A DNA stretch of 64,000 nt from Luteitalea sp. TBR-22 (GTDB lineage: Bacteria; Acidobacteriota; Vicinamibacteria; Vicinamibacterales; Vicinamibacteraceae). Positions 46,242-49,882 of this stretch are shown here, in pieces (within the stretch, counting starts at the first letter, position 1; each line of letters starts with the position of its first letter). Both the position numbers and the translations under genes were made by a program. Location: positions 1,014,501 through 1,078,500 of the forward strand of contig NZ_AP024452.1 in the NCBI RefSeq assembly GCF_016865485.1, read 5' to 3'. Under the pieces are notes generated by a model that searched no databases, was not told the origin of the DNA, and worked only from the letters and a program-made list of their open reading frames with translations.

Positions 46242-46290
46242 CGACTCCCGACTCCCGACTCCCGACTCCCGACTCCCGACTCCCGACTCC
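46242..46290 (-). repeat. Seven perfect heptamers in the GH116 leader
   Basis: cgactcc repeated seven times without change, ending 11 nt before the start codon. On the coding strand this reads GGAGTCG repeats, each with a GGAG that resembles a ribosome-binding core; the nearest proper site is AGGAAA just after the array. Confidence 0.93.
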
Positions 46291-46317
46291 GTGACTGCCG
46301 ACGGCCGAATGCCGTCC

Positions 46318-47532
46318 CTAGAACGTCCAGCTCCACTGCAACGACAGCAGGTCGTCCCGCGGATCGTCGCGGCCCACCGTGCGGTTGATCATGTACTCGC
46401 CGCGGATCTCGCTGCTGCGGCCCAGGCGGTAGCCGGTGCCGAACTGGTAGCGGCTCATGTCGTAGTCCCACCGGTCGCGCACGCCCGATGACCGCGCCAG
46501 ATCGCGGAACACGATCGCATTGGCGCGTGCTGCGACGAACCAGCCGGCGGCCAGCGTCGCCTGGGCTTCCACATAGCCCGAGACGTCGCGAGGCGCCTCG
46601 GCCACGCGGAAGACTTCCCAGCGGTTCACCAGCAACTCACCGCGGATCGCATGGCGTCCTCGTTCGAAGGTGGCGTCGAGGCCCCACGTCTCCTGGTCCT
46701 GCCGCGGCGCATCGACGGTCGGACGCATGTAGGCGCCTCGCGCATACGAAACGGCCACCTGCAGTTCAGGCCGCACCCGCCAGCGCACGTTGCCGACGCC
46801 CGAGAAGCCGCCCGGCGCGTCGACCCGCCAGCGATCCCAGTCACGCGGATCGGCAGATACCGCGCTGGTCGTCACCCCGCCGACGGCAGACACCGGACCA
46901 CGGCCGACCGAGAGCGTGGCTCCAATCGGGTAAGGCACCGCCCACACGATGGGGAGGCCGGCGGCGCGGAACGGCGGCCGGTCCTTCCACGTGAAGACAC
47001 CGTCGTTGGCCGCGGGGAACTCGGTCGCCGACATCACCGTGCGGTAGTCGTAGGCCAGCGGCGGCCGCACGAACGGGTCGGCCTTCGTGTGCGCGCGCCC
47101 GGGATAGCCGCCGAACGGCGACACGAACTTGCCGGCCTGCAGGTGGACGTTCTTGCCGGGCACCGGCGTGTAGCGGACGAACGCTTGCTGCAGGTGCAGG
47201 CGCAGCGGCCCTGCCGTGGCGGGCTGTCCGCGGTCGACGCGCACCTCGGTGGAGAAGAAGAGCCTGCGCCCGATGAACAGGTCGGTGAACAGGCTCACGC
47301 GCCCCGCGACGAAGGGACTCGTGGCGTCGAGGTGCCAGGCGGGTTCGTCCTGCGGCACCAACAGGTCGACGTCGATGCGGGCGCTCGGCACGATCTGCAC
47401 GAGTCCGCCTGGCGAGTCGTAGCGCACGCCTGCCTGCTCGAGGGTCGGCAGGTCGAACACCTGTGCCGCCGTCGGCGCGGGTGCGAGCAGGGCCACCGCG
47501 ATCGCCACGGCGCTGGCGGCTCGCGCGATCAC
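46318..47532 (-). CDS. Outer-membrane beta-barrel (porin-like) protein
   Basis: A 404-residue protein; GTG 47532 was chosen for the GGAGGT upstream and the signal peptide it opens (VIARAASAVAIAVALLAPAPTAA). Alternating hydrophobic strands follow throughout: SARIDVDLLV..., GRRLFFSTEVRVDRG, QLQVAVSYARG-like repeats. It ends QFGTGYRLGRSSEIRGEYMI...LSLQWSWTF, a terminal Phe typical of BAM substrates. A Gly-rich opening QAGKFVSPFGGYPGR resembles phosphate-selective or OprO-like porin loops. The start overlaps the cyclase stop by GTGA, so it is translated together with the cyclase and cupredoxin. Confidence 0.82.
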   Translation of the reverse strand: MIARAASAVAIAVALLAPAPTAAQVFDLPTLEQAGVRYDSPGGLVQIVPSARIDVDLLVPQDEPAWHLDATSPFVAGRVSLFTDLFIGRRLFFSTEVRVDRGQPATAGPLRLHLQQAFVRYTPVPGKNVHLQAGKFVSPFGGYPGRAHTKADPFVRPPLAYDYRTVMSATEFPAANDGVFTWKDRPPFRAAGLPIVWAVPYPIGATLSVGRGPVSAVGGVTTSAVSADPRDWDRWRVDAPGGFSGVGNVRWRVRPELQVAVSYARGAYMRPTVDAPRQDQETWGLDATFERGRHAIRGELLVNRWEVFRVAEAPRDVSGYVEAQATLAAGWFVAARANAIVFRDLARSSGVRDRWDYDMSRYQFGTGYRLGRSSEIRGEYMINRTVGRDDPRDDLLSLQWSWTF

Positions 47533-49214
47533 GCCCGTACCTCCGCGTCGCCCGCGAGTCCGTGCACCAGGTAGGGCGTGACCGGCGTCGAGAAGCCCTT
47601 GATGGGGCGCGGCTCGAGGGCCCGCGCCACGACGTGCGGTGCGACGAGGGCGTGCGTCCGGTCGCCGATCAGCACTTCGCCGGCGCCGGCCTCCGAGCAC
47701 AGGCGATTGGCAGCATTCACCGAGGCGCCAAGCACCGTGTAGTTCAGTCGCGTCGACGACCCCATGTTGCCGGCCACCGCCGGGCCGCTATTGACGCCGA
47801 CGCCGATCGCGAAGGGGGTATCGCCACGGGCACGCCTGGCCTGGTCGAACGTACGGGTCACGTCGCGCAGCCGTAGCGCCGCGCGGACCGCGTGCAGTGC
47901 GTGCTGCGCGTCGGCCACCGGCGCACCGAACACGCCCATCACCATGTCGCCGACGTACTTGTCGACCACACCGCCCTCGTCGGTGATCGTCCGCGCCGCG
48001 AGCTCGAGCCACTCGTTGAGCATCGCGATCACGTCCTGCGGCGGCAGGTGCTCGGTGAGCGAGCTGAAGCCGCGCACGTCTGCAAAGAGCGTCGACACCT
48101 CCCGCGTCTCGCCGCCGAGCTGCAGGTCGCCCTTGAGCAGCTCCGCCGCGACGTCGGGCGACACCACCTTGTCGAGCACGCTGCGGTAGCGCTCCTTCAG
48201 CAGCAGCCCTTCGGTCATCTGGTTGAACGCGCCGGCCAGCGTCCCGAACTCGTCAGCGTGTGGCACGGTCACCTGGAAATCGTACTCGCCACGGCGCACC
48301 CGCGTCGTCGCCGCCACGAGCGTGCGAATCGGCTGGGTCAGTTGTGCCGACAACACCGCGCCGAGCAGCACCGCGAGCAGCAGCGCGCCTGCGGCGGCCA
48401 CGAGCCCGACGCGCCTGATGCGATCGAATGGCCCGATCACTTCGTCGAGCGGCACGGCGCTCACGGCGACGGCCGGGCCGCTGCCAGCCAGCGGCGTCGC
48501 CACGATCGCGAGCCGTCGGCCGCCGTGGGTCAGAAACGTCGGCACCTCCACCTTCGCCGCGCTCACCAGCGCCATGGCGAGCGCGGCGTCCTTGGCGCCC
48601 GGGCTCGCGGCCAGGCACCGCCCGGCCGCAAAGCAGACGTCGGCCTCCACGATCGCCGCGAGCCGCGTCGCGACCTCGTCGTCCACGGCGAAGCCGAGCG
48701 TGAGGCTCCCGACCTGGCTGTCAAACAGCGTCAGCGCTTCGGTGATGACCATGAAGAGGCGGCCGGCGACGATACGGTAGGCGCCGGCGGCATCCCCGGA
48801 GACGGGGGCCGGGCGTGACCGATCCGCGTCGACAGGCGCCGAGTCGAGCAGCGTGAGCACGGGCGTGCCCTGCGCGTCGCTGAACTGCACCAGCCCTTCG
48901 CGCAGCTCGGCGAGCGCCAGCTCGTACTGGACCTGCTCGACGAATTCGCGTCGATCGCCGCCGGACACGACCGCGTCGAGCGCCGCGGCGATGCGGATCG
49001 AACTCGTCAGGCGGCGCGCCACGCGCGTGAGCTCCGCACGGCGCAGCCGTTCGACTTCGGCCAGGGCCCGTCGCGTCCGGTCGGCCGTGTGGGCGGCCAC
49101 GCGGTCCACCTGCCGCTGGGTCTGGTGGCCGACGACGAGGAAGCTGGCGAGGCCGAGGAGGCCGACGCTGCCGACGAGCGCGGCGAGCAGCCGGCCGCGG
49201 AAACTGATGGTCAC
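47529..49214 (-). CDS. Membrane-bound class III adenylate/guanylate cyclase with periplasmic sensor and HAMP
   Basis: A 561-residue protein from GTG 49214. TM1 at about 8-28 (LLAALVGSVGLLGLASFLVV). A periplasmic sensor of about 230 residues follows, probably double Cache, containing CFAAGRC, two cysteines seven apart. TM2 is near 270-295 (GLVAAAGALLLAVLLGAVLSA), HAMP at about 296-350 (QLTQPIRTLVAATTRVRRGEYDFQVTV), and the cyclase domain to the end. Catalytic metal Asp residues lie in STLFADVRGFSSLTEH and DKYVGDMVMGVFGAP; the transition-state region is LNYTVLGASVNAANRLC. It makes cAMP (or cGMP). Its start overlaps the cupredoxin stop (GTGA) and its stop overlaps the barrel start. Confidence 0.92.
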   Translation of the reverse strand: MTISFRGRLLAALVGSVGLLGLASFLVVGHQTQRQVDRVAAHTADRTRRALAEVERLRRAELTRVARRLTSSIRIAAALDAVVSGGDRREFVEQVQYELALAELREGLVQFSDAQGTPVLTLLDSAPVDADRSRPAPVSGDAAGAYRIVAGRLFMVITEALTLFDSQVGSLTLGFAVDDEVATRLAAIVEADVCFAAGRCLAASPGAKDAALAMALVSAAKVEVPTFLTHGGRRLAIVATPLAGSGPAVAVSAVPLDEVIGPFDRIRRVGLVAAAGALLLAVLLGAVLSAQLTQPIRTLVAATTRVRRGEYDFQVTVPHADEFGTLAGAFNQMTEGLLLKERYRSVLDKVVSPDVAAELLKGDLQLGGETREVSTLFADVRGFSSLTEHLPPQDVIAMLNEWLELAARTITDEGGVVDKYVGDMVMGVFGAPVADAQHALHAVRAALRLRDVTRTFDQARRARGDTPFAIGVGVNSGPAVAGNMGSSTRLNYTVLGASVNAANRLCSEAGAGEVLIGDRTHALVAPHVVARALEPRPIKGFSTPVTPYLVHGLAGDAEVRA

Positions 49215-49882
49215 GGCGCGAGGGCGACGCGCGCCGCCCCGCCCTGGGGTACATCCACGACGGCCTGCGCGCGCCGATCGAAGGTCTCGAGCACCAGGGT
49301 GTAGCGTCCCGCCGGCACGCCGTCGAGCCTGACACGGCCGCTGGCCTCGACCACCGCGTAGTACGGGTTGTCGACGACGAGGACGCCGGCGCGCATCCAC
49401 TTGTGGACCTCGCACAGCACCTTCACGTACCCGGGCTTGTCGAAGGTGACCGTCTTGGATTCGCCTCGCGGATAGCGCCCGAGGTCGAAGCGTTTGGGGC
49501 GCGAGTACGAGAAGACGTTGTGGAACAGGTTGTCGCCGTTCGGGAAGCCGACGCGCGCCCCGACGGGGACCACCAGAAGTGGCGGACGGAAGGCCTCGCC
49601 ACGCTGCGCGAGCTCGAGGCCCGACGGGCGCGCCTCGGGCGCGCCCGCGACCGGTCCGGCGATGTAGACCACGGCGGGCACGTCCTGTGTGCTGCGGGCC
49701 TCGCCGGTCGAGGAGACGTAGCGGTCGGCCTGCCGCGCCGGGGGGTGTGAGGGCAGGGTGACGTCGACGTCGATGGCGCCTGCGCCGCGATCCTGTTGCG
49801 CGAGCGAGGGGGCAGGAGCCGCCAGCGTGCACGCCAGGGCCAGCAACAGGTGGAGCCGGAACAGGACCATGACGGGAGGCAT
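49211..49882 (-). CDS. Exported cupredoxin-domain protein (MauL-like)
   Basis: A 223-residue protein. ATG 49882 is used, but ATG 49870 is equally possible; neither has a clear ribosome site. Signal peptide FRLHLLLALACTLAAPAPSLA. The plastocyanin-like domain, about 60-170, holds a full type-1 copper set: His121 (GDNLFHNVFSY), Cys157, His160 and Met163 (VLCEVHKWM). A small beta-sandwich at about 172-223 follows (RVRLDGVPAGRYTLVLETFD), like carboxypeptidase-regulatory domains. Such proteins are often named methylamine-utilization-like without a role in methylamine use. It is first in a three-gene, stop-start overlapped unit with the cyclase and the barrel, suggesting that it feeds copper or redox state to the sensor. 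Confidence 0.85.
   Translation of the reverse strand: MPPVMVLFRLHLLLALACTLAAPAPSLAQQDRGAGAIDVDVTLPSHPPARQADRYVSSTGEARSTQDVPAVVYIAGPVAGAPEARPSGLELAQRGEAFRPPLLVVPVGARVGFPNGDNLFHNVFSYSRPKRFDLGRYPRGESKTVTFDKPGYVKVLCEVHKWMRAGVLVVDNPYYAVVEASGRVRLDGVPAGRYTLVLETFDRRAQAVVDVPQGGAARVALAP

Follow-up and report, generated by a model that had tools for sequence, protein, structure and literature searches.

What joins a blue-copper protein, a membrane cyclase and an outer-membrane barrel whose genes overlap stop to start? We address this question for a locus of Luteitalea sp. TBR-22, whose genome is a single contig of 6.47 Mb (NZ_AP024452.1). The window, meaning the whole stretch of DNA that was analysed, comprises 64,000 nucleotides (positions 1,014,501 to 1,078,500 of the contig). 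All three genes lie on its minus strand in the order cupredoxin, sensor cyclase, barrel. We conclude with high confidence that they form one unit. Our preferred reading, held with moderate confidence, is that the trio is a trans-envelope sensing module, in which the cupredoxin acts as periplasmic co-receptor of an exchangeable sensor and the barrel is its dedicated outer-membrane part. The features of the trio, in window positions, are the following.

49211..49882, minus strand: cupredoxin gene (ATG start, 223 amino acids) with a signal peptide, the type-1 copper site and a C-terminal carboxypeptidase-regulatory-like stretch
49520..49522, minus strand: codon of copper ligand His121, from the sequence and invariant in alignments
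49394..49414, minus strand: codons of copper ligands Cys157, His160 and Met163 (C-x2-H-x2-M), from the sequence and alignments
49211..49214, minus strand: 4-base GTGA overlap of cupredoxin stop and cyclase start, from the sequence
47529..49214, minus strand: membrane sensor cyclase gene, probably an adenylate cyclase (GTG start, 561 amino acids)
48411..49133, minus strand: dCache_3-like periplasmic sensor region, residues 28-268, the part common to sensors with other outputs
48615..48635, minus strand: Cys194-FAAGR-Cys200 pair, seen in the window genus and a Gemmatimonadota branch
48204..48353, minus strand: HAMP domain, residues 288-337, by Pfam
47565..48107, minus strand: class III cyclase domain, residues 370-550, with D379, K419, D423, T493, N500 and R504
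47529..47532, minus strand: 4-base GTGA overlap of cyclase stop and barrel start, from the sequence
46318..47532, minus strand: gene for a 16-stranded OprP-like outer-membrane barrel (GTG start, 404 amino acids)
47461..47532, minus strand: probable signal peptide of the barrel, ending in TAAQ, by reading of the sequence

A preliminary description of this locus had claimed two stop-to-start GTGA overlaps joining the three genes, and both are present. It had also claimed an intact type-1 copper site, a class III cyclase with a periplasmic sensor, a CFAAGRC pair and a HAMP domain, and a porin-like barrel. These assignments hold. His121, Cys157, His160 and Met163 carry the numbers it gave and are invariant in all 24 rows of a diverse cupredoxin alignment. 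Pfam (Guanylate_cyc PF00211, 1.6e-21; HAMP, 3.6e-12) and the sequence confirm the cyclase gene, and an AlphaFold2 model of the third protein has 16 long strands in its DSSP list (predicted local distance difference test, pLDDT, 87.4; predicted template-modelling score 0.85).

The association of the three genes is broad. Genome contigs were scanned with the cupredoxin alignment, and the best 80 of 114 relatives were taken as loci; three of these (L036, L044 and L058) repeat the contigs of L015, L012 and L011 and remain included in the 80. All three genes are present in 55 loci, cupredoxin and sensor in 15, cupredoxin and barrel in 3, and cupredoxin alone in 7. A contig end lies nearby in 17 of the 25 incomplete loci (9/15, 3/3 and 5/7 of the three kinds, respectively). 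By NCBI record names, complete trios span 11 phyla: Verrucomicrobiota (18), Gemmatimonadota (11), Acidobacteriota (7), Ignavibacteriota (6), Zixiibacteriota (3), Planctomycetota (3), Eiseniibacteriota (2), Bacteroidota (2), Krumholzibacteriota (1), Calditrichota (1) and Pseudomonadota (1). The preliminary description had named a lack of conservation beyond close relatives as one ground for giving up its proposal, and that ground has fallen away. Gene order differs among the 55 trios, being cupredoxin-sensor-barrel in 39, cupredoxin-barrel-sensor in 10, barrel-cupredoxin-sensor in 4 and otherwise in 2. That the set is kept though its order varies supports, at the level of sequence, the view that the three genes belong together.

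Profiles of the cupredoxin, the barrel and the periplasmic region of the sensor without HAMP and output were also run against the window genome and 60 relatives. Close orthologues of the cyclase (69-71%) occur among the 60 relatives only in two genomes of the genus (G001 and G004). Strong cupredoxin matches (E ≤ 1e-42) number 65; within 3 kb, 39 of them are accompanied by both sensor and barrel, 10 by the sensor only, 1 by the barrel only and 15 by neither. Because weaker cupredoxin rows were left out, the share with a partner among all cupredoxins is lower than 50/65. Seen from the partners, a strong cupredoxin lies within 3 kb of 49 of the 58 sensor matches with E < 1e-15 (64 sensor matches overall) and of 42 of the 45 barrel matches. 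The three remaining barrel matches all lie at most 1.3 kb from a contig start. A rough density estimate gives a chance expectation of 0.2% per gene, so both associations are well beyond chance. All 64 sensor and 45 barrel rows were used, with at least two genes (in G022 and G017) split into two rows. Two loci scored as sensor-only (L119 and L120) hold a barrel-like gene between cupredoxin and sensor, recognised by eye and without a profile match; therefore, true trios are at least as many as counted. Iteration starting from the window protein produced the sensor profile, so E-values on its source loci are not independent. The search of relatives is the fairer test, though its sensor alignment also drew on such loci.

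The window genome itself carries a second module (L113, G000:C1:326341-331219), composed of a barrel, a cupredoxin, a histidine kinase and an NtrC-type response regulator. Its histidine kinase has the same type of periplasmic domain as the window sensor. By reading, an open reading frame (ORF) with a CxxCH heme motif comes after this module.

Cyclase and barrel are even encoded in one frame in several genomes. An uninterrupted cyclase-barrel frame is found in a congener (L010, genome G004) and in two Gemmatimonadota loci (L028 and L030). We searched 298 Gemmatimonadota genomes with the L028 frame, keeping matches with E ≤ 1e-40, a threshold at which weaker unfused pairs could be missed. Both parts were among the listed matches in 7 genomes (those of L028 and L030 included), in every case within a single open frame of 980 to 1390 codons that a cupredoxin adjoins. 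In G063, the genome of L029, the fused frame lies on a contig that is cut inside the cyclase. L031 is an exception, with a separate and convergent barrel gene. The pair is thus fused in 8 of the 9 Gemmatimonadota genomes seen with both cyclase and barrel.

The linker of these fusions is hydrophobic and signal-peptide-like, ends in AQ and corresponds to the probable signal peptide of the window barrel. It has no ATG, GTG or TTG in L125 and only two start-type codons, within or after the hydrophobic part, in L028; the other linkers have at least one. The fused frame of L126 (G291:C92) has a Ser/Asp/Ala-rich linker of about 100 residues before the signal-peptide-like stretch. Because no stop intervenes, translation that begins at the cyclase has to run on into the porin. 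The most economical interpretation is a polyprotein that signal peptidase I would cut; a cut polyprotein has a precedent in the cytochrome b/c1 precursor FbcH. On a tree of cyclase domains, the window protein groups with L010 and L009 (100/99) inside a mostly Gemmatimonadota and mostly fused branch, in which the forks are weak (80-90) and into which a long Alteromonadales pair also falls. Since the window cyclase branches among fused neighbours, its GTGA overlap is the unfused form of the same pair.

What the receptors do inside the cell varies widely. Behind the dCache_3-like domain we find histidine kinase, adenylate cyclase, Ser/Thr kinase, GGDEF/HD-GYP and GGDEF-EAL outputs. Output classes were assigned by motif, and by this measure the 70 sensor-bearing loci comprise 29 histidine kinases, 2 kinases with a GGDEF-like motif, 21 cyclases, 3 Ser/Thr kinases, 3 GGDEF and/or HD-GYP proteins and 12 sensors without a class. 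Eight of these 12 are open frames of at most 449 codons. By reading, the sensors of L079 and L091 end like kinases and that of L097 like a SpoIIE phosphatase. A Pfam check of ten sensors gave 7 histidine kinases (3 with a receiver), 2 proteins with GGDEF and HD domains and 1 protein kinase; L047, GGDEF by motif, proved to be a kinase with a receiver. HAMP matches 7 of these 10, and dCache_3, CHASE4 or sCache stands in front in 6 of 10; across the aligned sensors, HAMP matches 46 of 63. A Ser/Thr protein kinase domain is found in the sensors of L082 and L104 by motif and in that of L099 by Pfam; the sensors of L082 and L104 also give weak class III cyclase matches.

The sensor-domain tree (4 states, 64 labelled of 72 rows) requires at least 8 changes of output, and the cupredoxin tree likewise at least 8, both trees being the product of quick searches. 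Because the output varies while the cupredoxin and the periplasmic domain stay, the parts outside the inner membrane are constant and the part inside is a plug-in. Distances on the cupredoxin and sensor trees correlate with r 0.69 overall and r 0.92 within phyla. Within-phylum shuffles gave a mean r of 0.34, and the largest of 300 was 0.52.

Response regulators are the sole other family that clearly recurs beside the 80 loci (L028-L107), and they belong to the two-component form of the output. A separate receiver-domain ORF is present in 23 of the 80 and an NtrC-type ORF in 11, directly after a histidine-kinase sensor in 8 (L035, L041, L048, L051, L052, L057, L063 and L077). In L037, L047, L055, L056 and L091, a receiver-domain ORF runs up to the start of the cupredoxin ORF or slightly past it, which places the response regulator upstream rather than downstream of the module. 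One recurrent neighbour cluster (10 loci) is an opposite-strand shadow of the same response regulators, another (6 loci) has a GC-rich, off-frame look, and the remaining clusters cover at most 5 loci each.

Plasmids of Caballeronia, Comamonas and Novosphingobium have an 'EAL domain-containing protein' directly after the cupredoxin, which is annotated there as 'methylamine utilization protein' or 'carboxypeptidase regulatory-like'. The annotation of the three proteobacterial regions that were read includes no methylamine dehydrogenase gene. Since names such as 'methylamine utilization protein' mislead, many systems of this kind may be overlooked. Two of the plasmid loci (L108 and L110, from Caballeronia and Novosphingobium) hold the cupredoxin and a GGDEF-EAL sensor together with a DUF3034 gene and a group 1 truncated haemoglobin; in the proteobacterial version, the role of the barrel may fall to DUF3034.

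Is the cupredoxin a genuine type-1 copper protein? The window sequence contains the full His, Cys, His, Met ligand set, and the set of His plus Cys-x2-His-x2-Met is complete in 80 of 80 collected loci (79 by motif, L098 by reading). The contig-scan patterns fixed only the first His and neighbouring residues, so the conservation of the other three ligands is an independent result. Strong conservation also marks the stretch FPNxDxxxHNVFS...FDLGRYPKG around the first ligand, partly because the scan selected for it; this stretch would fit a docking face. Pfam gave only a below-threshold Copper-bind match (E 0.0066). In the PDB, the alignment profile finds copper nitrite reductase, plastocyanin and amicyanin, the last with a best E of 4.5e-7. 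Membership in the amicyanin/methylamine pathway was considered and rejected, the TIGR02657 score being 14.9 bits against a cut-off of 110.2. No cupredoxin is fused to a sensor or barrel among 112 loci. A further locus (L117, G008:C121:3000-19000) has three cupredoxin genes of the family in about 12 kb, with no sensor-domain match and one weak barrel match.

Class III adenylate cyclases have two metal-binding Asp residues, an Asn/Arg pair, and a Lys plus Thr or Asp that recognise adenine. The window cyclase has this residue set in its adenylate form: two metal Asp, Asn/Arg, and the adenine Lys and Thr. In an alignment, K419 and T493 match CyaB and differ from the Glu and Gly of the guanylyl cyclase Cya2. 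Because the Lys and Thr are of the adenylate type, cyclic AMP (cAMP) is the most likely product of the window cyclase. The cAMP output proposed in the preliminary description is therefore likely here, and within the family it is only one of at least five outputs. Two CRP-family (HTH_Crp_2) regulators above cut-off in the genome could receive the cAMP; they are a weak pointer, as this family turns up in all 14 control genomes.

The AlphaFold2 model of the sensor cyclase, built with an alignment of relatives as input, has a mean pLDDT of 91.2. When the whole model was used in a fold search, the cyclase domain filled the match list, and a sequence search for solved relatives of the sensor domain returned only chance-looking helical matches. 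The sensor-domain alignment shows no invariant metal-binding residue of the CusS/CopS type. Cys194 and Cys200 of the CFAAGRC pair lie on adjacent strands in the model. The pair is present by motif in L009, L010, L028, L030, L031 and L122, the sensors of L123, L125, L126 and L127 have two Cys seven apart, and by reading no such pair is found in the other sensors of the alignment. A disulphide switch was rejected as a general mechanism because the pair was seen only in the cyclase-porin branch (the window genus and Gemmatimonadota); within that branch it may still be relevant.

The structures nearest to the barrel model are OprP and OprO (VIA Z 28.4 and 28.3 over 316 and 314 residues), and the model has the 16-stranded fold of general and OprP-type porins. 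Pfam gave only sub-threshold porin matches, the phosphate-selective porin O/P family (PF07396) scoring 14.3 bits against a gathering score of 20.9. G134, P158, G204 and R336 are strongly conserved, and G141, R146, G260, G266, E299, A334, W355, G367 and Q399 nearly so. We considered a copper channel, and this idea is unsupported: His, Met and Cys are absent from the strongly conserved positions, and the barrel thus bears no mark of such a channel. A 7-base tandem array (CGACTCC, 8.6 copies; 46242-46302) lies between the barrel gene and the next downstream gene. Scans for sigma-70 promoters and terminators found none in the region.

How might these parts work together? According to our preferred reading, the 16-stranded outer-membrane barrel and the periplasmic type-1 copper protein would work with the dCache-like domain of the inner-membrane receptor. 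The metal or redox state of the cupredoxin, or a solute bound beside its copper, would set its docking on the dCache domain, and HAMP would pass the docking state to the cyclase to give cAMP. The barrel would be the receptor's own outer-membrane part, either an entry gate for the signal or a docking site; since barrel and receptor are produced together, a role as bulk porin is improbable. Copper loading, cupredoxin-sensor docking, the role of the barrel, the identity of the signal and the processing of the fused protein are the steps that we infer. The sensing chain proposed in the preliminary description survives in part. Its trio is a unit, as the 11 phyla, the periplasmic domain kept with varied outputs and the fused frames indicate; the disulphide pair is not general, and cAMP is one output among several.

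The unit itself could be an accident of three unrelated envelope genes sharing a transcript, since 4-base overlaps are common in bacterial operons. However, joint conservation in 11 phyla with rearranged order, the barrel-cupredoxin association (42/45) and the single cyclase-barrel frame in several genomes make such chance neighbours scarcely credible. Another rival is a copper homeostasis operon: the barrel would be a copper uptake or leak channel, the cupredoxin a store, and the sensor would read copper to set their amounts. The complete type-1 site in 80 of 80 loci speaks for it, but the conserved barrel positions lack His, Met and Cys, none of these is invariant in the sensor domain, and no recurrent neighbour cluster has the look of a copper ATPase or Cop/Cus protein (representatives were read, and no targeted search was made). 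We judge this explanation improbable. More serious is the possibility that a small anion or organic acid passes through the barrel and is itself the ligand of the dCache domain, the cupredoxin being co-expressed for the response, as electron carrier or metal buffer, and standing outside the sensing. Direct binding of small molecules is usual for dCache domains, the anion porins OprP/OprO are the closest structures to the barrel model, and no metal ligand is invariant in the sensor alignment. Yet the constant partner through at least 8 changes of output is the cupredoxin and not a transporter or enzyme, and, response regulators aside, no candidate response family recurs widely nearby. We hold a direct solute sensor to be possible but rather unlikely.

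Several observations weigh against the co-receptor reading. The cupredoxin stands alone in 7 of the 80 loci (5 of the 7 near a contig end). Among the relatives, a sensor within 3 kb is lacking for 16 of the 65 strong cupredoxin matches, 15 of which lack the barrel as well, and 9 strong sensor matches lie apart from a cupredoxin. Because some cupredoxins stand without sensor or barrel, the protein may have other uses. On the Sinorhizobium plasmid pSymA and a Phyllobacterium plasmid (L111 and L112), a more distant cupredoxin with C-x2-H-x2-M lies beside SCO and metallophosphoesterase genes, without a sensor; these rhizobial plasmids may show a different use of the family. The agreement of the trees is weaker between loci of different output (r 0.42), and such agreement is also expected from plain co-inheritance of neighbours. 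The fold assignment of the sensor is affected as well, since dCache_3 (PF14827) matches 20 of 63 sensor homologues at E ≤ 0.001 and the window protein has no match. Finally, the sensor-domain alignment has no invariant His, Met or Cys.

These data point to an undescribed form of sensing across the whole cell envelope. We consider it evenly balanced whether the trio represents a phylum-spanning class of trans-envelope receptors, with a blue-copper co-receptor, a dCache domain bearing plug-in outputs (cAMP, two-component, Ser/Thr kinase, cyclic di-GMP and perhaps SpoIIE) and a porin of its own. In such a class, the Gemmatimonadota cyclase-porin polyprotein, split by an internal signal peptide, would fix one porin per receptor. 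If this is true, the module offers a genetically clean handle on how Gram-negatives read conditions beyond the outer membrane, and the polyprotein is an unusual tie of an inner-membrane enzyme to an outer-membrane channel. Type-1 copper proteins are familiar as carriers of electrons and as domains of enzymes. To our knowledge, they are not known as the constant partner of signalling receptors, and here one such protein accompanies receptors with many outputs.

We found no description of the trio among the papers listed in searches of the open-access literature; most subscription journals were outside the scope of this search, and an earlier description is possible. We know of no system that matches its full make-up. 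TorT-TorS, LuxP-LuxQ and ChvE-VirA are receptors assisted by a periplasmic protein, and, as in the trio, the gene of the soluble periplasmic protein lies next to that of a transmembrane receptor with a domain in the periplasm. The trio differs from this type in its type-1 copper protein, its at least five exchangeable outputs and its dedicated outer-membrane barrel, and it is known from genetic association. The histidine kinases CusS and CopS share with it periplasmic sensing and copper as a possible signal. However, they bind metal in the sensor itself, whereas no metal ligand is invariant in the sensor of the trio, which is accompanied by a porin and by a copper protein of its own. FecA-FecR and RcsF-type systems are examples of outer-membrane signalling, and the parallel is a signal from an outer-membrane barrel to an inner-membrane regulator; the trio lacks their TonB-dependent receptor, sigma factor or lipoprotein, and its barrel has a porin fold.

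The single parts also have known counterparts. The catalytic domain resembles CyaB of Pseudomonas aeruginosa (3r5g; 35% identity, VIA Z 28.0, 191 residues) and shares with it the Lys and Thr at the base-recognition places, but the window cyclase has a dCache-like sensor, a cupredoxin partner and an overlapping or fused porin. The barrel shares its 16 strands with the phosphate- and diphosphate-selective porins OprP and OprO, but it is only 16-17% identical to them, has no Pfam porin family above cut-off and is part of a receptor unit. The cupredoxin has the C-x2-H-x2-M spacing of amicyanin, but it carries an extra C-terminal domain and is followed by the sensor gene. Each part of the trio belongs to a known fold family; the assembly matches no system known to us.

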